From the NCBI GenBank assembly GCA_017449975.1, contig JAFSYK010000072.1, positions 1 to 55,616 of the forward strand: a stretch of 55,616 nucleotides of DNA, written 5' to 3'. The translations under genes and the position numbers were made by a program. This DNA is from Bacteroidales bacterium (GTDB taxonomy: Bacteria > Bacteroidota > Bacteroidia > Bacteroidales > P3). Positions 941 to 10,680 of the stretch are shown here, one piece after another. The notes under the pieces were generated by a model. It searched no databases. It was not told the DNA's origin and saw only the letters and a program-made list of their open reading frames with translations. Numbering within the stretch: position 1 is the stretch's first letter; every line of letters starts with the position of its first letter.

Positions 941-1135
941 ATGTCAGAAAAGGAACTTAATTCTTATCGACTCACATCGATGCAGGAGCCAAGTGATGAA
1001 ATGCTCTCAGCCATCATGCGCGAGGCTGCTGAGGATGCCAAACAGTCCACAGATGCTGCAGAGAATCGATTTTTTGGTGAAATAAGCCAAATGGTGGAGG
1101 ATGCTCTGCGGAGATACAACGTCGCTGTGCAATGA
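941..1135 (+). CDS. Small acidic protein, putative antitoxin of the zeta module
   Basis: A 64-residue, strongly helical and acidic protein (MREAAEDAKQSTDAAENRFF). Its stop overlaps the start of the zeta-toxin gene by four bases (ATGA at 1132-1135), a classic translationally coupled toxin-antitoxin arrangement. It is too short to be a canonical epsilon antitoxin and I recognise no DNA-binding fold. The antitoxin role is inferred only from size, charge, order and overlap. The upstream spacer (796-940) is AT-rich and shows no exact TAnnTTTG promoter. A longer overlapping frame at 744-1085 is less convincing because it begins inside the pckA terminator. Confidence 0.65.
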   Translation: MSEKELNSYRLTSMQEPSDEMLSAIMREAAEDAKQSTDAAENRFFGEISQMVEDALRRYNVAVQ

Positions 1136-1743
1136 ATGACAATATCCATAGGCCCGTGTTGATTGTCATTGCCGGTCCGAATGGATCTGGCAAGACTACT
1201 GTTACTTCCAAAATCCTAAAGCATGAATGGTTAGAGGATTCGGTTTACATCAACCCCGACCAAGTGGCGCAAGAACGATTTGGCGATTGGAATTCACCGG
1301 ATGCAGTGAGACAGGCGGCTATATATTGCGCGAAATGGCGAGAGCAAAGTTTGTCGGATAGGCAAAGCATGATATTTGAGAGTGTGTTTTCGGCGGAAGA
1401 CAAATTGGATTTTCTTCTCCGTGCAAAAGAGGCAGGATTTTTTGTGCGATTCTTCTTCGTTTGCACCTCTTCGCCAAAGATAAATGCTTCGAGAATTGCT
1501 GGACGCGTGATGAAAGGAGGCCACGATGTGCCCATCACAAAGATTATTTCGCGCTATCAAAAGTCTATCGCTAATTGCATGGTGGCCTCGTATTTTGCCG
1601 ACAGAACATATATTTACGACAATTCGGAGGATGGTAGGGAGGCACAGTTGCTATTTCGTATGGTAGAGGGAAAACTCACTAAGCAGTATATCTCTAACAT
1701 TCCGAAATGGGCGTTGCCTATTTATAACCATGCAAAAAAGTAA
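1132..1743 (+). CDS. Zeta-toxin family kinase
   Basis: A 203-residue P-loop protein. The Walker A motif GPNGSGKTT is at residues 15-23, followed by the zeta-like YINPDQVAQERFG block (an acidic site near residue 42) and IFESVFS. Zeta toxins phosphorylate UDP-N-acetylglucosamine or related sugar nucleotides and poison wall synthesis; the Bacteroidetes proteins are largely uncharacterised, so the substrate is unknown. Start ATG 1132 overlaps the upstream small ORF. The last two bases of its TAA stop are the first bases of the second pckA 3'-end repeat, so the gene stops exactly at the recombination junction and could have lost a few C-terminal codons. Length is still usual for the short zeta-like family. 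Confidence 0.85.
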   Translation: MNDNIHRPVLIVIAGPNGSGKTTVTSKILKHEWLEDSVYINPDQVAQERFGDWNSPDAVRQAAIYCAKWREQSLSDRQSMIFESVFSAEDKLDFLLRAKEAGFFVRFFFVCTSSPKINASRIAGRVMKGGHDVPITKIISRYQKSIANCMVASYFADRTYIYDNSEDGREAQLLFRMVEGKLTKQYISNIPKWALPIYNHAKK

Positions 1744-1832
1744 AGCCCTGGTGGCCGCTGGTCCGAAACTGTAATCACAGTTGTCAGATAATAAAACAAA
1801 AACACTCCCGAGGCTTCGGGAGTGTTTTTGTT
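1742..1832 (+). repeat. 91-bp direct repeat, copy 2 (orphan pckA 3' end plus terminator)
   Basis: It matches 705-795 at 89 of 91 positions. It starts within the zeta stop codon and ends two bases into the stop codon of the convergent WYL gene. This copy has no pckA body in front of it. It now serves as terminator for the zeta module (hairpin 1798-1829) and, on the other strand, for the WYL gene. Confidence 0.95.
1798..1829. terminator. Bidirectional terminator between zeta module and WYL gene
   Basis: A copy of the pckA hairpin, with the same 14-bp arms and GGCT loop. It terminates the zeta gene from the left and the WYL regulator (stop at 1831) from the right. Confidence 0.88.
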
Positions 1833-2739
1833 ATTCTTCTTCGTAGATTTGTGACATTTTCAGCACCTCTTCGCGGAGGGTTTGGCGGAGACTTTCGGGT
1901 TTGAGAACCTCGATGGTGCTGCCGAGCGAGAGCAGTTTCTGTCGAAAGTCGATGTTGGGCCGCACCCGTAGGGCGAAGATGGGGCAGCCCTCTTTTTCGC
2001 CAATCTCCATCTGGCTTTCGTGCAGCTTGGGTGAGCGCAGATAGTTGGCCTGTAGCGGAGTGGCTTTTATCCAAACGCTCTCCACGGGCGTCTCCTCGTC
2101 GATGGTGACGCCATAGATGCCGTCGTACATCTGTTCGATGTCGAAAGCGGGGTCGCGCTGGTAGGTCTCCTCCTGCAACTCGCAATGACTCATGCGGTCG
2201 AGTGCGAAACAGCGGTAGGGCTTGTTGTCGTTGTAGCGTCCGATGAGGTACCAGCGACGCTCGAACATCTTGAGGGCGTGCGGCATGAAGTTGTAGAACA
2301 GCACTGGTTCTTTCATCCAGTAGGAGCCGTAGGTGAAGCTGACCATGCGTTGATCTTTCAGTGCTTCGAGCAGGAGGGGCAGGGGAGTGTTGGCGTTGGC
2401 CCGCGGAATGTCGATATACTGTGCCACTTGCTGGCTGTCGGTGACAATGCGGTTGACGGAGATGGAGTTCAGCAGCCAATGTCGGAAGAAGTCGCTCTTG
2501 CCGTTGTCGGCAATACGGTAACGGAACTCTTGTCCGATGCTGTGGCTTTCGATAGTGATGCCGAAAAGTTCCGCTATCTCGTTGCGGTGCCGGTAGAAGC
2601 TACGTTTGGAGAAGGCGCCGTTGCTGCGCATCTCGTCGTCGGCATCCCATTTGTTGCCAATCTGTTCGATGGTGAGGCCCAACTCGCCGCCGCGCATGAT
2701 AGCGTCCACCAGCCAGATGTATTTTTTCAAAGGAGACAT
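1831..2739 (-). CDS. WYL-domain transcriptional regulator 1
   Basis: A 302-residue protein with an N-terminal winged-helix-like region (residues 1-75) and a WYL domain from about residue 125. The W-Y-L triplet itself is at 163-165 (RRWYLIG), and a C-terminal WCX-like extension follows. WYL proteins sense nucleic acid or nucleotide ligands and frequently repress phage-defence loci (BrxR and CapW types). A close paralogue lies at 8834-9745, also on the minus strand; the two bracket the accessory genes. Start ATG 2739 matches the paralogue's MxPLKKYIWLVD start. It ends in the shared terminator. The target is unknown; control of the island is inference. Confidence 0.88.
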   Translation of the reverse strand: MSPLKKYIWLVDAIMRGGELGLTIEQIGNKWDADDEMRSNGAFSKRSFYRHRNEIAELFGITIESHSIGQEFRYRIADNGKSDFFRHWLLNSISVNRIVTDSQQVAQYIDIPRANANTPLPLLLEALKDQRMVSFTYGSYWMKEPVLFYNFMPHALKMFERRWYLIGRYNDNKPYRCFALDRMSHCELQEETYQRDPAFDIEQMYDGIYGVTIDEETPVESVWIKATPLQANYLRSPKLHESQMEIGEKEGCPIFALRVRPNIDFRQKLLSLGSTIEVLKPESLRQTLREEVLKMSQIYEEE

Positions 2740-3233
2740 GATAGGGTAGGGTTAAGAGTTAATGGATTGAATTGAAATTGGGGCAAAAATACACCATGTG
2801 AACGCCAAATCATGTCACAGCGAAAAAATTCTTTATCACAGATGCCTTATATACTCCCTTAGTTACTAGTGAATAAACAGAGAATAGTCATGCAAAAGTA
2901 CATCTTTTTTTTAATTTATATTATTTTAAGAAGTTAATTGATGTTTGAATATAGTTTAGTTTTGTTCTAAATAACCTCTAATAATTAGTTGTGAACACGA
3001 ATCTAACGAATTACTATTCGTGTTATTCGTGCAATTCGTGTTCAAATAAAACGAATAATTAGTGGTTACCTCTAATTGTTCTTTCCACTCATGAGTGCCG
3101 CCGGTGGCGGCACGAGCCGCCGCCCTGCAAGTGCCCACTTGCAGGGAAAAGCGGCGGACTTGGGAATGCGGTATGTGTCAAGGCAGAACGTTTGAAGCAT
3201 CAAAAAAAAGCCGTCCTTGAAATAGACGCGATC
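2740..3233. other. Intergenic region with dispersed-repeat remnants and GC hairpins
   Basis: No convincing gene. 2740-2990 is AT-rich. 2992-3067 carries reiterated TTCGTG words (ATTCGTG-CAATTCGTG-TTC) resembling the 139-bp leader repeat at 7481 and 8393. 3097-3157 is a sharp GC-rich island of hairpins. A 60-aa minus frame at 2956-3138 is composed of this repeat sequence and is not supported. Confidence 0.7.
3097..3157. repeat. GC-rich hairpin cluster (REP-like)
   Basis: Two stem-loops lie side by side in AT-rich DNA: GCCGCC-GGT-GGCGGC near 3098-3112, then a perfect 10-bp stem CCCTGCAAGT / ACTTGCAGGG (3123-3146) inside an outer CCGCCG / CGGCGG pair. The start of the first (3091-3110) recurs inverted at 8601-8620 with one mismatch, so it is a dispersed element. 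Confidence 0.7.
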
Positions 3234-3587
3234 TCAAACACTTATAGTAGCGACCTCTTGCACAATTTGTCGCAGACATTTCAGCCGCTCCATCTGGCGA
3301 TTGTATTCTTCTTTGAAGAAATACAGCGGTGATTCACATAGTGGCAGCCTCTGTGCCAGCAGAGCCTGGTCCCGGCTTACATGATATCGTTCCATCAATG
3401 CCTGGGTGCGCTCCTCCGCGGATGAAAACTCCATAACTAGGTCTGCCAGCACCTGCGGGTCAAAGTTGATTTTCTCAAACACTTTTGCATTGTCAATAAA
3501 AGAATCCAGAAACTCCGGCGTCAGCGCCATGAGTTCTTCATTCCCTGTGTCAATTCCCCACATTCGAGGTTCAAAGTATAGTTTCAT
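3234..3587 (-). CDS. Hypothetical protein, 117 aa
   Basis: I do not recognise the family. The 117 residues have no signal peptide or membrane segment. The second half is helical and charged (EFSSAEERTQALMERYHVSR, then EEYNRQMERLKCLRQIV), suggesting a small soluble alpha-helical protein. It follows the Trp-repeat gene on the same strand but has its own hairpin-plus-promoter module just upstream: hairpin 3627-3653 and TAATTTTG at 3614-3621, leaving a leader of only about 25 nt. Expression as a single-gene unit is therefore likely. The island position hints at an accessory role; no function is claimed. Confidence 0.6.
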   Translation of the reverse strand: MKLYFEPRMWGIDTGNEELMALTPEFLDSFIDNAKVFEKINFDPQVLADLVMEFSSAEERTQALMERYHVSRDQALLAQRLPLCESPLYFFKEEYNRQMERLKCLRQIVQEVATISV

Positions 3588-3613
3588 GTTTTTGCTAGTT
3601 TTTTATTCAACCA

Positions 3614-3621
3614 CAAAATTA
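3614..3621 (-). promoter_or_regulatory. Promoter -7 box for the 117-aa gene
   Basis: Minus-strand TAATTTTG fits the Bacteroidetes -7 consensus TAnnTTTG. It lies directly downstream of the 3627-3653 hairpin. No clear -33 TTTG at standard spacing is visible. Confidence 0.5.
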
Positions 3622-3626
3622 CAAAA

Positions 3627-3653
3627 CGGGAGTGCCACATCGTAACACTCCCG
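3627..3653 (-). terminator. Hairpin module a: terminator of the Trp-repeat gene
   Basis: Arms CGGGAGTG / CACTCCCG with an 11-nt loop, followed on the minus strand by a T-rich run. It shares the core GTGCCACATCGT with the elements at 4262, 7604 and 8516. Each of these is followed, in minus-strand reading, by TTTGTA and a -7-like box. Confidence 0.75.
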
Positions 3654-3679: not shown

Positions 3680-4210
3680 TCAATTGCTTGCCATTTCTTT
3701 TTCTATGCGGTCAACCTCTTTGTTTCGTAAAGCCCACAGTAAAGAGGAGTTATCCAAAAAATCAGAAAGTGGTATATATTCTCGGTAGCGAATAAAGAAG
3801 TCTCGATTAAATATTTTATCATCATCGTCAATATATCTGTTTATAAGTTCGTGCCAATCCCAACGGTCAATATATTTATCAATAATATCGTAATCCAACT
3901 TAAAGTCTGAATTGCCAGACAATGCACTCCAATTCCAACGGTCGGCAAAGTGTTCGACCACTTCAGGAGTAAATAACGATTCATTTCTGTTGCGAGAAAT
4001 CCATTCCCAATCGATCCGGTTGGCCCATTTCTCTAGGAGTTTTTCTATCCATTGTATGCTGCCGTTTCGCGATACATCTTGCCAATTCAATTTATCGGCA
4101 TATTTCTCCAACACTTCCTCATTCAATTCACTGTTTCCGGAAATATAGTCCCATGCTTCTTTGGCGATGATGACGTCAAGCATCTCATCAGTTAATGAAT
4201 TGCAATTCAT
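3680..4210 (-). CDS. Trp-rich tandem-repeat protein, 176 aa
   Basis: A soluble acidic protein built of about four degenerate repeats of roughly 27-32 residues. Each ends with W-x-x-(I/L)-S-x-N or a close variant: WDYISGNSEL, WQDVSRNGSI, WEWISRNRNE, WNWSALSGNSDF, WDWHELI. Between them lie amphipathic helices such as EEVLEKYADKLNW and PEVVEHFADRWNW. This suggests a right-handed helical-repeat or scaffold fold. Similar W..LS.N repeats occur in hypothetical proteins of bacteria and giant viruses, without known function as far as I recall. It is AT-richer than the core genes. It has its own promoter box (4248-4256) and is isolated from the nuclease operon by hairpin 4262-4288. Confidence 0.7.
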   Translation of the reverse strand: MNCNSLTDEMLDVIIAKEAWDYISGNSELNEEVLEKYADKLNWQDVSRNGSIQWIEKLLEKWANRIDWEWISRNRNESLFTPEVVEHFADRWNWSALSGNSDFKLDYDIIDKYIDRWDWHELINRYIDDDDKIFNRDFFIRYREYIPLSDFLDNSSLLWALRNKEVDRIEKEMASN

Positions 4211-4247
4211 AATGATTCCTTTCTTTATGTTAAGTTGTTATTTAGTT

Positions 4248-4256
4248 GCAAAAATA
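4248..4256 (-). promoter_or_regulatory. Promoter -7 box for the Trp-repeat gene
   Basis: Minus-strand TATTTTTGC is a perfect TAnnTTTGC match, about 38 nt before the ATG at 4210 and directly after hairpin module b. Confidence 0.6.
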
Positions 4257-4261
4257 CAAAG

Positions 4262-4288
4262 CGGGAGTGCCACATCGTGACACTCCCG
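4262..4288 (-). terminator. Hairpin module b: terminator of the nuclease operon
   Basis: Arms CGGGAGTG / CACTCCCG and the same loop core (CCACATCGTGA) as module a. It lies 36 bp beyond the stop of the PD-(D/E)XK gene, on the minus strand. Confidence 0.75.
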
Positions 4289-4323
4289 AAAAAGGAATCA
4301 AATCGTTGGAGTACAAATTTTTA

Positions 4324-5445
4324 TTATTTTTTGTGTTTGATCGGTATAGTTAGTTCGACTTTGGCATTCTTTACATCGTCAAGCATTCTCGTGACAATTT
4401 CAATAACCTCTTTTGAGAACTCTTTTTTTATCATTTTAGGAAATAATGATGGCTCCTTCCAATCATTGAAAAGATGTCCATCAAAATAACCATATGGCCA
4501 CCACTCATTAGGATAATCCCATATTTTTCTTTGAACTTCCACCGGTTCATCATATGAAATGCCATACGTGGCCTTGGTTTTTGATATATAAATACCCAAT
4601 CTTGCCCCTTGCCATTCATCCTTGGTGAAAAATAATGGCGGATCGTATTTAAGCCCGTTTTTCTTTGAAAATTCAAGCAAATCTGGTTTTACGAATTTGT
4701 CGAATAAATAATCAAAATAACCGTCATTTGCTGCATTAATAATAGCATCGACTTCTTCGTGTTTTTTGACCATTATTTCAAATAGTTCATTCTTTGATTG
4801 TTCATTCATGTCCTGTTGTGTTAATTGTTTAATATGGTTTCTATATTGAACAAGAGTTTCTCTAACTAAAGGTAATTGGGAGGATTTTTCTATACACAAT
4901 TCCATCCATTTTATAATGTGTTCAGAGTATGACATCCTAATATAATCAATACCTTCTCCACTATCAGGAGATGCATCATCCCCCCAAAGAGTCAGGTAAA
5001 TTATTTCGGATTGAACCGATCCTCTCTGAATGGCATCTTTTCTATATTTTTTTAATTGAGCACCTTGGTCTCCAGCAAATATTTTGTTTTCAATTATGAC
5101 GATTGGTTTTCCTTGATATTCAACGTAAATATCCATGCGACCGTCGTAATCAGTTGTCCATTCCTCTCTTTTGACACGGATGCTCTTTTCATCCAAGTTT
5201 GCTACATCAATGGACGAGCCATAGGTCTCCATGAAAAGTTTTAAGTATAAGCACCCTTGACCATGTGAACCTTCCGGATTTAACAATTCTGCTATGATTT
5301 TTGAATGTTGTAATTCATAGTGGTCGACACCACATACCTTAAAGATGTTGAATTGTTCACCGCGAAGTCGACTCTCTTCCTTGGCGACTTTCGCTTGCTG
5401 AACAATTTGGCTCACCGCCTTGAATAGTTGTTCGTACTGTTCCAT
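4324..5445 (-). CDS. PD-(D/E)XK nuclease superfamily protein
   Basis: A 373-residue protein. The core is in the first half: YELQHSKIIAELLNP (residues 43-57), then GRMDIYVEY with Asp105, and IVIIENKI with Glu119-x-Lys121, which together form the PD-(D/E)XK metal site. A conserved GDQGAQLKKY follows. This resembles the PDDEXK_4 group of uncharacterised Bacteroidetes and Clostridia nucleases. The C-terminal half (about 220-373) is a separate domain with aromatic-rich blocks such as WDYPNEWWPYGYFDGH. It is the last gene of the minus-strand run PLD, Mrr-like, coiled-coil, PDDEXK, 23 bp after the coiled-coil gene. Defence against foreign DNA is plausible but inferred. Codon use is clearly AT-richer than the core genes. 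Confidence 0.8.
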   Translation of the reverse strand: MEQYEQLFKAVSQIVQQAKVAKEESRLRGEQFNIFKVCGVDHYELQHSKIIAELLNPEGSHGQGCLYLKLFMETYGSSIDVANLDEKSIRVKREEWTTDYDGRMDIYVEYQGKPIVIIENKIFAGDQGAQLKKYRKDAIQRGSVQSEIIYLTLWGDDASPDSGEGIDYIRMSYSEHIIKWMELCIEKSSQLPLVRETLVQYRNHIKQLTQQDMNEQSKNELFEIMVKKHEEVDAIINAANDGYFDYLFDKFVKPDLLEFSKKNGLKYDPPLFFTKDEWQGARLGIYISKTKATYGISYDEPVEVQRKIWDYPNEWWPYGYFDGHLFNDWKEPSLFPKMIKKEFSKEVIEIVTRMLDDVKNAKVELTIPIKHKK

Positions 5446-5468
5446 GTTAATAATATTGTAGTACTATG

Positions 5469-5786
5469 TTAGAAATCAAAGTCTGGATTATTTATGTCAT
5501 CAGTATACATCATTCTTCTTTCCGCAGAAGGATCAGGAAAATCAAATTCATCTTTTACTCGTTGGATTAATTGAATAGTTTTTTTATAAATCTTTCGTAT
5601 TTCATTGTTATTATGTGATGGTACACTAATTTCTTCCAGATATTGGTCCAAATCATCTATCTCATGTTTTATCTCAATTACTTCATGTTCTATCTCATTC
5701 ATTACAGAAATGGCCTCTTCCTGGGTAGCATTGCTATCCATCAATTCATGCATTTTCTTTTGTAATTGCAGTAACTGTGCTTTCAT
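5469..5786 (-). CDS. Small coiled-coil protein in the nuclease operon
   Basis: A 105-residue, highly charged protein that looks almost entirely helical to residue 85. Heptad-like runs (QLLQLQKKMHELMD, EIEHEVIEIKHEIDDLDQYL) predict a coiled coil. It has no signal peptide and an acidic tail ending NNPDFDF. The stop is 23 bp from the PD-(D/E)XK gene, so the two are almost surely co-transcribed; the 79-bp gap to the upstream Mrr-like gene is AT-rich. It could be an oligomerisation partner or inhibitor of a neighbouring nuclease. I recognise no family. Confidence 0.7.
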   Translation of the reverse strand: MKAQLLQLQKKMHELMDSNATQEEAISVMNEIEHEVIEIKHEIDDLDQYLEEISVPSHNNNEIRKIYKKTIQLIQRVKDEFDFPDPSAERRMMYTDDINNPDFDF

Positions 5787-5865
5787 TTTTTTTATCTTTT
5801 AGTTCCTAATGGTTACTTTGTTCAACACAATGAGTTATCTTTTGGGTTATTTATACTTTCTAATT

Positions 5866-6906
5866 CTATAAGCTCAATCCCTCTAATCCTGCATTCAGTA
5901 TCATAGTGGCAAATTCAATACCTGTGATTAGACGAACACCTGCTTGGTCTGCCTCATTCATCGCTCTCAGGCTGTAATGCTCGCACGACGAGATTACCCA
6001 CATCTGAGTATGATAATCGTCATAAGTATGATTGGTCTTATAGGCTTTGATTTGCTGAATAGCCCATTCATCTGTTACACCGTCATTTTTTTTTACTTGA
6101 ACCATGATGGCAGTCTTGATGTTCTCAAAGTATCCTATCACATCAGCATCACCTTCACCTTCGCCTTTGTCAGGGGCATTCTTACTTGGGATTTCAGTCC
6201 TCGCTCCTATCGATTTTAAATACCTTTCAACAAGATTCTCGAAACTGTCTGCACTTGTTAGATTTTCAATCAATGTCAACAGCTTTGGGGCCGTTTCTTC
6301 TATGATTTTCTCCTTCAGATTGATGGGTTTGTGTTCTTCGTATGCCTTTCGGGCATTCTCTATAGAATCCTTCATGTCAGAAATATCCGCATTGGTCTGT
6401 CGGATTTTCATTCTTGAAATCAGTTTTTGATCGGCAAACCCCATCCGAGGTATGTTATATAGAATTGGCTTCACCTTTCTATAGAAACCCAAATCTATTG
6501 GCTGACCGTCTTCATTGTAATAATAACCGTCTTCATGCAGAATGGCTTTCTTGTCATTCCAATCCATGAATACCGAAGAATCTATGGATTCGTTTGAAAA
6601 GATAACGTCGTCTTCAATTTCAAATAGACTGAATTCCTGGCTTGTGGGAACGAGAACAATGTCCCCCTTCTTCATCTCCATAATAAAACGCCACAGGTTC
6701 CATCTGTTTTTAGGCAAACCCCATCCTTCAGCTTGCATTGCGCCTTCTAATGCAGCTTCTCCTCCTGTCTGCACTTGCTTCACAAAGGCATCTGAGGAGA
6801 AATCACTCCAACCGATGGATAAGAAGTGGTGGGTAAACAATAGCGGATGAGCGAACCCCAAAGCATTATCTCCACCTGTAATCCTGTGTAACCAGTACTT
6901 TTTCAT
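5866..6906 (-). CDS. Mrr-like restriction endonuclease with N-terminal reader-like domain
   Basis: A 346-residue, two-part protein. The N-terminal 150 residues (YWLHRITGGDNALGFAHPLL, then KKGDIVLVPTSQEFSLFEI) resemble EVE/PUA-like folds that read modified bases; this is my inference from pattern, not a firm match. The C-terminal 130 residues are a Mrr-type catalytic domain: FENLVERYLKSIG (Glu223 region), GDADVIGYF (Asp255) and IMVQVKK (Gln270-x-Lys272), the D...QxK form of the PD-(D/E)XK core. The architecture suggests a type IV, modification-dependent restriction enzyme. It begins 17 bp after the PLD gene, so they share a transcript. AT-rich composition suggests horizontal acquisition. Confidence 0.8.
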   Translation of the reverse strand: MKKYWLHRITGGDNALGFAHPLLFTHHFLSIGWSDFSSDAFVKQVQTGGEAALEGAMQAEGWGLPKNRWNLWRFIMEMKKGDIVLVPTSQEFSLFEIEDDVIFSNESIDSSVFMDWNDKKAILHEDGYYYNEDGQPIDLGFYRKVKPILYNIPRMGFADQKLISRMKIRQTNADISDMKDSIENARKAYEEHKPINLKEKIIEETAPKLLTLIENLTSADSFENLVERYLKSIGARTEIPSKNAPDKGEGEGDADVIGYFENIKTAIMVQVKKNDGVTDEWAIQQIKAYKTNHTYDDYHTQMWVISSCEHYSLRAMNEADQAGVRLITGIEFATMILNAGLEGLSL

Positions 6907-6923
6907 AATTCTTCCATTATTTA

Positions 6924-7439
6924 TTACCCAATCTTATCCCCACAATACTCCTTCCGTTTGCAACTCTTGCAATGGCGGCCTTGCCAGACGGAGTCGAGGT
7001 GGTCGGCGGCGGCATCGACGAGCGATGGCTCGTCGGTGAGTATGCCAGCTTCGAAGTTGCGGTTGCCTTCACCCTTCATGCCGATACCGGCACCGGTGAG
7101 ATTGGCGGAGCCGATGTAAGCAACGGCGCAGTCGAAAATCATCAGCTTGAAATGCACTCGCGGACATAGTCGCCGCTCAAGACGTGTCCACAACCCGGGA
7201 TATTGGTCGAAATCCTCACGGAAGTTCTCGCCAGGCTCTTTGGCATGCAGCAGTCGAACCTCGACGCCGCGTTTCAACAGCCGGTCGAGGACGGCGAGGA
7301 ACGGCTCCACTTTGCCAGCCGCTTTCCCGACATATAAATCTTTCAGGTCGGCGGTGCCAATCCACAGGTCGTGCTTCACCTGCGAACAGCGGGCCAACAC
7401 TTCAGTATAATGTTCTTTATCTGCGATATACTTTACCAT
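6924..7439 (-). CDS. Phospholipase D-like nuclease/phosphodiesterase
   Basis: A 171-residue protein with one HKD motif: H96-F-K98 followed by D103 (VHFKLMIFD), then IGSANLTGAG and an acidic residue (FEAG, Glu130). Single-HKD proteins of this size, such as Nuc and BfiI-type catalytic domains, work as homodimers on phosphodiester bonds. It ends with a small cysteine cluster, C157-x-x-C160-x5-C166 (HCKSCKRKEYC), that could bind metal. It heads the four-gene minus-strand run. Its leader is one of the two copies of the 139-bp repeat (7481-7619). Unlike the genes behind it, it is GC-rich and core-like in codon use, so the operon is compositionally mosaic. Confidence 0.8.
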   Translation of the reverse strand: MVKYIADKEHYTEVLARCSQVKHDLWIGTADLKDLYVGKAAGKVEPFLAVLDRLLKRGVEVRLLHAKEPGENFREDFDQYPGLWTRLERRLCPRVHFKLMIFDCAVAYIGSANLTGAGIGMKGEGNRNFEAGILTDEPSLVDAAADHLDSVWQGRHCKSCKRKEYCGDKIG

Positions 7440-7480
7440 ATAACGACTGCAAGATACGAATAATTAGAGAATCTTCATTA

Positions 7481-7619
7481 TTTTTTGACCACGGATTTCA
7501 CTAATCCACACGGATTATCCGTTTTATTCGTGCAATCCGTGTTCTATTTACAGATTTTTCGTGGTTGCTTAATTGTTTTTGGCTGCGAAGATACAAAACA
7601 TGTGTGCCACATCGTGGCA
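7481..7619 (-). repeat. 139-bp direct repeat, copy 1 (leader of the PLD operon)
   Basis: Matches 8393-8531 at a constant offset of 912 bp with about six or seven differences. In minus-strand reading it contains hairpin module c (GTGCCAC / GTGGCAC, 7604-7620), then TTTTGTATCTTCGC (a near TAnnTTTGC box), then reiterated CGTG/CACG words, and ends about 40 bp before the PLD start codon. Confidence 0.9.
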
Positions 7620-7620
7620 C
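7604..7620 (-). terminator. Hairpin module c, end of the 227-aa gene unit
   Basis: A perfect 7-bp stem GTGCCAC / GTGGCAC with an ATC loop, continued by CTCCCG as in modules a and b. It lies 65 bp beyond the stop of the 227-aa gene and is followed by a short T-run on the minus strand. Confidence 0.6.
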
Positions 7621-7685
7621 TCCCGTCTTAAAAGTTAATATTCCTTATTCTGCTATTCTCTTTATCGCATCTTGCACATTTTCTC

Positions 7686-8369
7686 TCATACGCTGTGGGT
7701 ACGACAGGTGTCAACGGTATGGCTGATGCGGTAGGATTTAAGGCGGAGGAGGTCGGGGACGGAGTAGTTCTTGTGGGTGCAGAGGTCGTGGACGGCGAAG
7801 CAAACGATGAAGCCTTTGAATTGTGGTATATCCAGACACTCTTCAGCCCAGGTTGTTCCGTCATCAAGATTGTCGGCCTCTGGCTTTTCTCCTATATATG
7901 TTGAACAGAAGCGTATCTCCAGGTCTTCGGTCCAGGCAATGGCTTCGGTCATTTTACTGAAGTCCGACCCATAGTCGGCATCGTCGTCGAACAGAAGTAT
8001 TTCTCCGCCTTCATCAACATCCAGTTTGCTCTCCACTTGAACTACACAGCTGGGGGCTATGGTCTCGATGAAATTGGCACTGAGGAAATCCATCAGGTTG
8101 CGATGTGTGGCGAACATATCCCGGGTGAGTTCCAATAGCTGGTCATTCACTTTGCGGAAGCGTGCCACCTCTTGCTCTGTGATGTGCAGTCTGAACATCC
8201 CGTTCATTATATAATGGCGATTATGGAGCAGTTCTTTTACCTGTCCGTAGAGGCATTTATCACTTGTCCAGCCATCTAAGTTCATGATATGTATTATCTT
8301 TTCCTCGACAAACTGTAGCTTGGCTTTCAGTTTAATCCATTCATGATTTGATATCAATTCGTGTTTCAT
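7686..8369 (-). CDS. Hypothetical protein, 227 aa, in a repeat-bounded unit
   Basis: The frame stays open upstream to 8423, but that extension runs into the 139-bp repeat, so ATG 8369 (MKHELISNHEWIKLK) is preferred. The protein is soluble. The first 110 residues are helical (LKAKLQFVEEKII, then VNDQLLELTRDMF). The second half has an acidic strand-rich region (EGGEILLFDDDADYGSDF) and a C-terminal block (FKGFIVCFAVHDLCTHKNYS) that I associate with uncharacterised Bacteroidetes proteins. The unit between the two 139-bp repeats consists of this gene alone, so it could move or be lost as a 912-bp cassette. No function is assigned. Confidence 0.65.
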   Translation of the reverse strand: MKHELISNHEWIKLKAKLQFVEEKIIHIMNLDGWTSDKCLYGQVKELLHNRHYIMNGMFRLHITEQEVARFRKVNDQLLELTRDMFATHRNLMDFLSANFIETIAPSCVVQVESKLDVDEGGEILLFDDDADYGSDFSKMTEAIAWTEDLEIRFCSTYIGEKPEADNLDDGTTWAEECLDIPQFKGFIVCFAVHDLCTHKNYSVPDLLRLKSYRISHTVDTCRTHSV

Positions 8370-8392
8370 AATGTTAATAAGAACTTCCAATA

Positions 8393-8531
8393 TTTTTTGA
8401 CCACGGATTTCACTAATCCACAAGGATTATCCGTTTTATCCGTGCAATCCATGTTCTATTTGCAGATTTTTCGTGGTTGCTTAATTGTTTTCGGCTGCGA
8501 AGATACAAAACATGTGTGCCATATCGTGGCA
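8393..8531 (-). repeat. 139-bp direct repeat, copy 2 (leader of the 227-aa gene)
   Basis: Same organisation as copy 1: hairpin (GTGCCAT / GTGGCAT region near 8516-8532), TTTTGTATCTTCGC box, then reiterated CACG/CGTG words ending 23 bp before ATG 8369. Differences from copy 1 are scattered single bases, so the duplication is fairly recent or under selection. Confidence 0.9.
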
Positions 8532-8833
8532 TAGGCAAAAGGCTTTTTACAGCTGCTGCTTTTTGAGGGCAGTGAGGGACTTTCAAGGCAGCGGTTAGCA
8601 CCGCCACTGGCGGCACTCATATTCGTGGGTCTTTTCTTGCCGGTTTCGGCAAAAAAAAGGTATGTCTTCGTATGAAGACTTGTCGATAGTTATGGGGTAT
8701 GTTATCGGGGCATACCTTGTTTTTGGCAAGGCAATGATATGCGCGGCAAGAGGGTGGTGCCAGGTGATGGTACCACGGTTGAGGGCGGCGCGTCGATGGG
8801 GTTGGGACGCGCGGGGAGGGGGCGGGCGGTGTG
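8532..8833. other. Intergenic region with a chain of small hairpins
   Basis: No supported gene. 8601-8620 is an inverted copy (one mismatch) of 3091-3110. Successive stem-loops follow: TGCCG-GTTT-CGGCA, GTCTTC-GTAT-GAAGAC, GGTATG ... CATACC and CCTTG ... CAAGG (about 8639-8733). An 82-aa plus frame at 8662-8910 is low-complexity and overlaps the WYL gene, so it is rejected. Confidence 0.6.
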
Positions 8834-9745
8834 TTATTCGGATGCTTGGTATAGCAGGGCCATTTTTTGCGTTTCGGCTTGCAGCGCCTGGCGTAGGCTT
8901 CGGGGTTTGAGTACCTCGACGCCGCTGCCGAGCGAGAGTAGCCGCTGACGGAATTCGCTGCCGGGCCGCAGCCGCAGGGCGAAGATGGGGTAGCCGTCCT
9001 GGTGACCTATCTCGGTTTGGCTGTCGTGCAATTTGTTGGCACGCAGACTGCCGGCGATGGAGGGGGAGACTTTGAGCCAGATGTTTTTGGCGGGGATGTT
9101 TTCTTCGATCAGGGTGCCATAGACGCCGAGGAAGAGCCGCTGGATGTCGAAATTGGGGTCGCGCTGGAAGGTCTGTTCCTGCAGTTCGCAGTGGTGTATG
9201 CGGTCGAGCGGAAGGCAGCGGTAGGGTTTGCGGGTGTCGTTGCGGCCGACGAGGTGCCAGCGATGGTTGAAGCGTTTGAGGGCGTGCGGCATGAAGTCGT
9301 TGCAGGTGATGGGCTCGGTTGCGGTGTCGGGGTCGAGGGTGAAGCTGACTTTGCGTTGCTCGATTAAGGCCTCGATCAGGAGCGCCAGTGGTGAATGGGT
9401 GGGGTTTTGCGGTAGGTCGATGAGCTGTGTGACATGCTGGTTGTCGGTGACGATGCGGTTGACGGCGATGGCGTTGAGGAGCCAGTGGCGGAAGTAGTCG
9501 TTTTTGCCTTTGTTGGCGATGCGGTAGTGGAAGGAATGGCCGGATCCGTGGCTTTCGATTTTGATGTCGAAGAGTTCTTCGATTTCGTTACGGTGCCGAT
9601 GGAAGCTGCGAACGGAGAAGGCGCCGTTGCTGTACATGTCGTCGTCGGCATCCCATTGGAGGCCGATTTGTTCGAGGGTGAGGCCTTCGTCGCCGCTGCG
9701 CATGAGTGTGTCCACCAGCCAGATGTATTTCTTCAGAGGGGTCAT
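8834..9745 (-). CDS. WYL-domain transcriptional regulator 2 (WHL variant)
   Basis: A 303-residue paralogue of the regulator at 1831-2739, alignable end to end (MTPLKKYIWLVDTLMRSG; RSFHRHRNEIEELF; YFRHWLLNAI) with well over half of residues identical by eye. The open frame reaches 9835, but the paralogue shows that ATG 9745 is the start. At the diagnostic triplet it has W163-H164-L165 instead of W-Y-L, while the surrounding RWxLxGRxxxxKPYRC is kept. The Tyr-to-His change sits in the presumed ligand pocket, so ligand specificity may differ. It is the right-hand border gene of the accessory island, and its composition is core-like GC-rich. Confidence 0.87.
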   Translation of the reverse strand: MTPLKKYIWLVDTLMRSGDEGLTLEQIGLQWDADDDMYSNGAFSVRSFHRHRNEIEELFDIKIESHGSGHSFHYRIANKGKNDYFRHWLLNAIAVNRIVTDNQHVTQLIDLPQNPTHSPLALLIEALIEQRKVSFTLDPDTATEPITCNDFMPHALKRFNHRWHLVGRNDTRKPYRCLPLDRIHHCELQEQTFQRDPNFDIQRLFLGVYGTLIEENIPAKNIWLKVSPSIAGSLRANKLHDSQTEIGHQDGYPIFALRLRPGSEFRQRLLSLGSGVEVLKPRSLRQALQAETQKMALLYQASE

Positions 9746-10146
9746 GATTGTATGTCGGTTCCCGGTTATAGAGCATCGGTGCGTCGCTTTTGGTGAAAGA
9801 AGAAGGGGGCTGTCAGTGCGATGACATGTGCACATAAAAAAAGCGTGGCACTTTTATGTTTTCGTTGGCTTCCTGAGGTCTTCGACTACCTAATCTACCC
9901 AATTACAACATATAGTTCCACGCCAATTGGCGAGAACGCGTAACGCAATTCTGGGGCAGATTCGTGAAGTTGTCGAAGTTTCAGGAAGGCCAGATTGTTT
10001 TTTCGCTTTTTTCTATTCTGCGATGTGCATATGTGGTTATGCGCTATACTTCATTGGCACTTGTTTTTAGTTAATAATACGGTTGATTTTTGTACAAAGT
10101 TACAAATAAAAAATGAAAAAGAGGTGTAGGGGGGTGGAATTCATTG
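9746..10146. other. Intergenic region with a long inverted repeat
   Basis: No gene seen. It contains a roughly 20-bp inverted repeat (9866-9886 with 9972-9992; arms CTTCCTGA..CTTCGAC / GTCGAAG..TCAGGAAG) enclosing about 85 bp, and a perfect 12-bp palindrome CGCCAATTGGCG at 9921-9932 inside it. It could be a structured RNA, a decayed mobile element or a regulator site. Confidence 0.5.
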
Positions 10147-10155
10147 TATCTTTGC
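10147..10155 (+). promoter_or_regulatory. Promoter -7 box for the carbonic anhydrase gene
   Basis: TATCTTTGC, a perfect TAnnTTTGC match, 21 bp before ATG 10177. Its position rules out the upstream TTG at 10144 as start codon. Confidence 0.75.
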
Positions 10156-10176
10156 ACTGTAAAAATACTTTTAACT

Positions 10177-10680
10177 ATGGCTTTGATTAAAACCTATAAG
10201 GGACATACGCCCCGGTGGGGCAAGGATTGCTATTTCAGCGAGAATGCGACGATAGTGGGCGATGTGACGATGGGCGACCAGTGCTCGGTGTGGTTCAACG
10301 CGGTGGTGCGGGGCGATGTGGCGCCGATCACTATCGGCGACCGTACCAATGTGCAGGATGGCGCGTGTGTGCATGTGACTTTCGATACGGGCCCCACGCA
10401 TATAGGCAGCGATGTGACGATAGGTCACAATGTCACGGTGCATGCCTGCACGGTGCACGACGGCGCCCTCATCGGGATGGGGGCGACGCTGCTTGACGAC
10501 TGCGAGGTGGGGGAGGGTGCCATTGTGGCGGCCGGCGCCCGGGTGCTGCAGGGTACCAAGATACCGCCCCACGAGATATGGGGCGGTGTGCCGGCCAAGT
10601 ATATCAAACCCACCCGTCCCGGCCAGACCGACAACGCGGCGCACTATGTGGAGTATGCCAAAGAGTATATGAAAGGGTAG
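10177..10680 (+). CDS. Gamma-class carbonic anhydrase family protein
   Basis: A 167-residue left-handed beta-helix protein made of hexapeptide repeats (ATIVGDVTMG, VTIGHNVTVH, GALIGMGATL, AIVAAGARVL). The three zinc-ligand histidines of the gamma-CA fold are present at H66, H84 and H89 in the usual ACVHVT and GHNVTVHAC contexts. Members (YrdA, PaaY, Cam-like) form trimers with metal sites between subunits; many show weak or no CO2 hydration, so activity is unproven. The start is set by the promoter box just upstream. It is followed 94 bp later by gcvP on the same strand. Confidence 0.88.
   Translation: MALIKTYKGHTPRWGKDCYFSENATIVGDVTMGDQCSVWFNAVVRGDVAPITIGDRTNVQDGACVHVTFDTGPTHIGSDVTIGHNVTVHACTVHDGALIGMGATLLDDCEVGEGAIVAAGARVLQGTKIPPHEIWGGVPAKYIKPTRPGQTDNAAHYVEYAKEYMKG

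Follow-up and report, generated by a model that had tools for sequence, protein, structure and literature searches.

The window, by which we mean the whole 55,616-nt stretch analysed here (contig JAFSYK010000072.1 of the Bacteroidales assembly GCA_017449975.1), holds a run of four minus-strand genes that a first, sequence-only reading had proposed as a candidate new defence operon. We describe these genes, the repeated dyad promoter that stands in front of them and its link to a WYL-family regulator. In the direction of transcription, the four genes are the following.

PLD, 6924-7439, minus strand: 171 residues, opening the unit; predicted phospholipase-D-like nuclease with a single HKD motif and a Cys cluster at the C-terminus.
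MRR, 5866-6906, minus strand: 346 residues; candidate type IV restriction enzyme, with a predicted YTH/EVE-type reader fold (1-192) and an Mrr nuclease (201-346).
CC105, 5469-5786, minus strand: small protein of 105 residues, probably a coiled coil.
PDDEXK4, 4324-5445, minus strand: 373 residues, closing the unit; predicted PD-(D/E)XK nuclease and full-length match to PDC-S26.

The coordinates of these open reading frames (ORFs), which were called mechanically for all computed scans, agree with the early description of four same-strand genes separated by 17, 79 and 23 bp. The AT-rich setting that it gave them holds for 4001-6000 (GC fraction 0.357) and less so for 6001-8000 (0.458), the other 2-kb steps ranging from 0.457 to 0.619.

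The four genes are real, and three of them encode intact predicted nuclease motifs. That these belong to different families, as first proposed, is confirmed by Pfam matches (PLDc_2, 3e-11, for PLD; Mrr_cat, 6.8e-9, for MRR; PDDEXK_4, 4.8e-36, for PDDEXK4) and by the active-site patterns H96xK98x4D103 in PLD (HxKx4D at 96-103), D253/D255...Q270xK272 in MRR and D105...E119xK121 in PDDEXK4. We infer nuclease activity and an anti-phage role for the enzymes of the unit. PDDEXK4 is already listed in PADLOC as the candidate PDC-S26: it matches the full profile (9.4e-86, residues 1-362 on profile positions 1-386 of 389), here in a probable operon with PLD, MRR and CC105. No PDB sequence relative of PDDEXK4 was found at E <= 0.1, and no paper naming PDC-S26 in the literature searched. 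PLD has one PDB sequence relative (7e0m, E 0.0039) and no match among the 50,697 phage records of the collection searched for it. Like DrmC of DISARM, it is a PLD-like single-HKD protein, yet its score of 46.1 bits against a curated cut-off of 133 led us to reject this identity, and no DISARM partner (DrmA/DrmB, methylase) was recognised among the 10 window proteins scanned. Its C-terminal cluster CKSCKRKEYC (residues 157-166, window 6942-6971) is a possible zinc site. CC105 matches no Pfam family above the cut-off, and several of its sub-threshold matches are coiled-coil proteins.

In MRR, the modified-base reader domain suspected from the sequence is present at the level of the predicted fold, together with a PD-(D/E)XK-type nuclease domain whose active site is intact. 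Foldseek returned five matches at E <= 0.001, every one of them MspJI or AspBHI. In an alignment of 14 sequences W5, W33 and W116 are invariant and W62 and W72 nearly so. With this predicted YTH/EVE-type reader joined to an Mrr nuclease, MRR is a plausible type IV enzyme. The match to the PADLOC profile PDC-S02 (7.2e-14) is partial and covers residues 168-338, and the collection of 72,556 plasmid records searched for MRR gave no match. EVE-PD(D/E)XK modification-dependent restriction enzymes (excerpts of PMC7641849) and VcaM4I join a PUA/EVE/YTH-fold reader to a nuclease as MRR appears to do; MRR differs from the EVE-PD(D/E)XK enzymes in its Mrr-type QxK nuclease domain and low sequence identity. 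The N-terminal part of MRR recurs in a 1028-residue ORF of another genome (L017:8001-11087, 31% identity over 1-185), where the reader domain thus seems fused to a different partner.

PLD is preceded by a promoter made of a GTGYCAYGATGTGGCRC-like dyad, 10 nt and a TATnTTTGC-like box. The window holds five copies, all on the minus strand and lying before HYP245, PLD, HYP176, HYP117 and WYL1; a scan of the window at >= 8 bits with a position weight matrix (PWM), trained partly on these same five copies, revealed no sixth. The box reads TATCTTCGC for PLD and HYP245, and TAATTTTGT for HYP117. The copies and the other genes of the island are listed below, with PWM scores, RNA folding energies and z-scores.

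Dyad promoter of HYP245, 8496-8535, minus strand: 44.7 bits; no stable hairpin, z -0.20.
Dyad promoter of PLD-MRR-CC105-PDDEXK4, 7584-7623, minus strand: 54.7 bits; fold -15.7 kcal/mol, z -2.99.
Dyad promoter of HYP176, 4247-4286, minus strand: 37 nt past the PDDEXK4 stop; 60.9 bits; fold -21.2 kcal/mol, z -5.62.
Dyad promoter of HYP117, 3612-3651, minus strand: 40.9 bits; fold -22.3 kcal/mol, z -6.66.
Weaker dyad promoter of WYL1, 2782-2821, minus strand: 42 nt before the ATG; 33.1 bits; no stable hairpin, z 0.21.
WYL2, 8834-9835, minus strand: paralogue of WYL1 (about 60% identical) on the far side of the island, with no upstream dyad found.
HYP245, 7686-8423, minus strand: 227 residues from the ATG at 8369; family of unknown function.
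HYP176, 3680-4210, minus strand: own dyad promoter; no Pfam match, PHROG matches to families of unknown function.
HYP117, 3234-3587, minus strand: own dyad promoter; protein of unknown function.
WYL1, 1831-2739, minus strand: WYL/WCX regulator (WYL 6.1e-12, WCX 9.9e-8), proposed to act on the dyads.

The four-gene run is bounded by two of these copies. From the PLD start to the HYP176 promoter the window scan found no dyad, and the one exact TAnnTTTG lies within the MRR coding region, at 6497. The simplest reading is a single transcript that probably runs from the first element to the second; the hairpin and T-rich tract of the HYP176 element may also terminate it. Excerpts of PMC7366714 give the Bacteroidetes promoter consensus as TAnnTTTG at -7 and TTTG near -33, on which basis the dyad would cover the -33 region. 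Autoregulation of WYL1 through its own dyad is possible. No known RNA family was recognised for the element, a single match (the HYP117 leader, on the other strand) scoring 24.6 against a gathering score of 50 bits. A leader of 152 nt is duplicated, at 93% identity, upstream of PLD (7468-7619) and HYP245 (8380-8531), and exceeds those of HYP176 and HYP117 in length.

The same element recurs well beyond the window. Among the 191 genomes of the window's family, the full motif with two mismatches was found at 96 places in 51 genomes and its reversed pattern nowhere; 46 of these 51 genomes belong to the window's genus. The pattern was derived from the sites of a set of fetched loci, in which a PWM scan at >= 10 bits had given 123 matches against none for the reversed control; that matrix was trained on 37 sites and scanned over their own source loci, and the whole-genome pattern search is the cleaner count. 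In all 74 sites analysed in the fetched loci, the distance from dyad to box is exactly 10 nt, where 5 to 23 nt were allowed. The window's own genome has four full-motif matches, all within this island. The short core with one mismatch occurs at 75 places in 47 of the 191 genomes, against 13 for the reversed control (counted by eye), and several of the 75 are chance-like and lack a promoter box (e.g. L239, L242, L244 and L245). Of 393 genomes drawn from the order, six have a match; two belong to the genus, the window's own among them, and the other four show one place each, with two mismatches.

The genes behind the dyads are partly of known defence types and partly of families of unknown function (HYP245, C14, HYP117, HYP176). 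Elsewhere the former include GmrSD, FtsK/SspH-like, AAA IetA-like and PDC-S26-like proteins. HYP245 is the commonest gene in this position, being the next gene within 260 nt at 14 of 82 such sites in the fetched loci. Another dyad island (L019, G045) contains an MRR homologue (66%); there the next dyad precedes a GmrSD gene, and a WYL gene closes the island.

A WYL regulator accompanies the element. Of 59 WYL places in the genomes, 46 were counted as WYL1 orthologues and the other 13 classed as weaker; 35 of the 46 have a dyad site within 15 kb, and 65 of the 96 sites lie at most 15 kb from such an orthologue. Counted by genome, 34 have both, 17 the site only, nine the WYL gene only and 131 neither (p 5.6e-17). 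A second comparison used 79 loci, of which 78 were chosen for PLD rather than for the dyad and one (L192) for CC105/HYP245, some sharing a genome. Of the 32 that carry a site, 20 encode a WYL protein of at least 50% identity, as does not one of the 47 lacking a site (p 8.5e-11), the strongest association of all families. This genomic association suggests that WYL proteins would bind the dyads, presumably repressing rather than activating. WYL regulators that act via inverted repeats on defence islands are known, as excerpts on BrxR indicate (PMC9122601), and our literature search, limited to titles and the beginnings of abstracts, recognised no WYL-linked dyad or hairpin promoter in Bacteroidales.

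The make-up of the four-gene run itself is not conserved. Homologues of MRR, PLD, PDDEXK4 and CC105 occur in 11, 72, 20 and five of the 191 genomes, respectively, and all four together in one, the window's own. This co-occurrence check had been suggested along with the original proposal, and its result is the one that the proposal itself had named as speaking against it. Another genome (G111) has three of the four, each on a different contig. In the closest relative (locus L018 of G115), whose shared and flanking proteins are 94-99% identical, the order WYL2, HYP245, PLD, MRR, HYP117, WYL1 is that of the window, and a 3.4-kb stretch of other genes stands in place of CC105, PDDEXK4 and HYP176, downstream of the intact PLD-MRR pair. 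The two sequences are 96% identical at the DNA level over window positions 5802-10200, up to about 64 bp past the MRR stop, so that this edge of the swap lies some 15 bp upstream of the start of CC105. The other edge is at 3603, where the sequences become identical again within the HYP117 leader, and between the two edges only stretches of the dyad elements match. Elsewhere, the neighbours of MRR homologues are mostly unrelated, the exceptions being CC105 adjoining MRR in one locus (L013) and PLD 3.3 kb from MRR in another (L014), and those of PLD vary by genome, with PDDEXK_4, GmrSD, zinc-ribbon, exonuclease or unrelated genes. With co-occurrence in one of 191 genomes, varying neighbours and the replacement of CC105-PDDEXK4 in the closest relative, we discarded the idea of a conserved module: PLD-MRR-CC105-PDDEXK4 is not a conserved four-gene system. 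What stands of the initial proposal is defence-type genes in one likely transcription unit and, at the level of the predicted fold, a modified-base reader on MRR; the new four-gene system does not.

The explanation that we consider probable is that the four genes form one operon, part of the interchangeable cargo of a WYL-switched chromosomal defence island in a Bacteroidales genus, and that their enzymes are separate effectors. The operon would be transcribed from the dyad promoter at 7623-7584 and end at the next dyad element, 4286-4247. The YTH/EVE-type pocket of MRR would read a modified base in invading DNA, which the Mrr domain would cut; PDDEXK4 (PDC-S26) and PLD would be separate nucleases, each with its own trigger, and CC105 a possible accessory of PDDEXK4 or MRR. 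WYL1 or an orthologue would bind the dyad over the -33 region and silence each island promoter until an infection-borne signal, probably a nucleic acid or nucleotide, releases it, so that the island genes are switched on together. Signals of this kind are reported for other WYL proteins in excerpts of PMC10693628. The genes, their motifs, the predicted MRR fold, the cassette exchange, the dyad promoters with their fixed spacing and the WYL linkage are all read from sequence.

Several observations tell against this explanation. As the genomes are related, independence is overstated and the p values given above are optimistic. No listed WYL gene, strong or weak, lies within 15 kb of 27 of the 96 sites (contig ends being uncorrected), 11 of the 46 WYL orthologues have no site within that distance, and only five of 36 WYL genes carry a dyad of their own at >= 8 bits. 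Five of the 51 motif genomes belong to two other genera. The cargo is not all defence, since dyads also precede GyrB-like and DUF932 genes. The box of PLD itself, TATCTTCGC, is not an exact TAnnTTTG, and the scan for exact boxes therefore leaves room for a weak internal promoter. Linkage to the dyad is almost as strong for a RhuM-Fic family (C6) as for WYL, with 16 of the 32 loci that carry a site against none of 47. Finally, the covariation of the outer arms and the better folding of the sense strand, presented below, fit an RNA hairpin, such as a terminator, as well as an operator.

Among the alternatives, CC105 and PDDEXK4 might be a two-gene unit, made of a nuclease and a small coiled-coil partner or antitoxin, that was inserted behind PLD-MRR. 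The 23-bp gap between the two genes and their joint presence on the swapped segment, whose edge falls just before CC105, are in its favour. We nevertheless regard it as rather unlikely, as CC105 homologues adjoin MRR (L013) or lie near HYP245 and PLD (L126) with no PDDEXK4 seen beside them, and of the five genomes with CC105 the window's own is the only one in which PDDEXK4 has a match.

Alternatively, the repeated dyad might mainly be an intrinsic terminator of the upstream gene that stands beside an ordinary promoter, with no regulator binding to it. Covariation was computed on 53 of the 74 sites, after removal of near-identical ones, and the outer arms do covary: none of 2000 shuffles reaches the values of pairs -3/19, -5/21 and -6/22, and -1/17 and -2/18 have p 0.002. 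G-T pairs outnumber A-C pairs in the dyad (94 against 21, or 56 against 21 when the T-G pair 3/13 is left out), an excess indicating that the sense strand folds better; its minimum free energy is -13.8 against -9.7 kcal/mol for the antisense strand at the 42 sites with a same-strand upstream gene. Moreover, a T-rich tract follows the dyad, and 62 of the 74 sites have an upstream neighbour on their own strand, neighbours of fewer than 80 residues being left out of this analysis. On the other side, folding is just as good at the 10 sites whose upstream gene is divergent (-13.2 kcal/mol), and two of the five window copies, those of HYP245 and WYL1, do not fold beyond chance. The inner 17 bp of the dyad are conserved in sequence, beyond pairing, and their spacing to the -7 box is constant; a terminator needs neither the conserved core nor the fixed spacing. 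Taken with the strong WYL link, these two features make a mere terminator unlikely in our judgement. An element that combines hairpin and operator is possible.

The dyads might also be operators of another regulator, for example the RhuM-Fic protein or a factor encoded elsewhere. The distribution of C6 given above argues for this; WYL is better linked, and C6 is absent from the window and L018 stretches, which hold five and four dyad copies, respectively, so that we think this quite improbable. The protein concerned, with a PDC-S23 match, accompanies dyad islands at L185:2-964 and in 15 others of the 79 loci. As for a single co-evolved system, with MRR as the sensor of modified DNA, CC105 as a bridge, and PLD and PDDEXK4 as the cutting enzymes, the shared strand, the short gaps, the single dyad promoter and the presence of PLD in nine of 10 MRR genomes of the genus against 68 of 121 overall (p 0.04; on one contig in G000 and G115 only) favour it, but the occurrence of all four genes in a single genome, the replacement of CC105-PDDEXK4 in the closest relative and the mostly different neighbours of other MRR homologues make it very improbable.

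Other genes of the region deserve mention. HYP245 belongs to a paralogue family with 30 members in the fetched loci, including a tandem pair (L018:8888-9574 and 9583-10251). Its structure model (predicted local distance difference test score 81.7) has no PDB match at E <= 0.001, and two members of the family that were scanned gave no Pfam family above the cut-off. In another genome (G025), a GyrB-like gene of 632 residues lies behind two dyad promoters, near a WYL gene (L232:2386-4284). The zeta module and WYL regulators first reported as neighbours of the run are all present; the zeta-toxin-like kinase (plus strand, 1132-1743; Zeta_toxin, 3.5e-12) is on the opposite strand, beyond WYL1 and outside the island, and is preceded by a small overlapping ORF (window 941-1743 for both).

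The closest known systems include the islands of BrxR type. As described in excerpts of PMC9122601, these are defence islands with their own WYL regulator, promoters that carry inverted repeats, two binding sites in one island and a type IV gene of the GmrSD family. The present island likewise has a WYL/WCX regulator and inverted repeats, in the form of five dyad promoters. It differs in the short dyad core over the -33 region, whose spacing to a Bacteroidetes -7 box is fixed, in the number of promoters, up to five per fetched island, in its confinement mostly to one genus (46 of the 51 genomes with the dyad), and in that no BREX gene was recognised among the window proteins scanned. The RptR-controlled island (PMC12255303), judging from its abstract, also has one regulator and short repeated palindromic sites at a defence-island promoter, and its regulator and site are both conserved across genomes. 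RptR is not described there as a WYL protein, and it has direct repeats of TAGCTA as its site at the promoter of the island.

The gene set itself does not make a new system; what matters is the rigid, WYL-tied signature, nearly free of false positives in the whole-genome search (96 places against none for the reversed pattern). We suggest, tentatively, that one promoter code may run the swappable islands of this genus, with unrelated cargo sharing a dyad that covers the -33 region and is read by the WYL protein of the island. If so, new genes would join a common phage-triggered response by arriving with the 40-bp element or recombining beside it, and the element, perhaps a site of exchange in its own right, would flag unknown defence families (HYP245, HYP117, HYP176, C14). 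Defence genes would then be findable by their promoter rather than by their neighbours or sequence, and the coordination of unrelated defences within an island would become directly testable in Bacteroidales.

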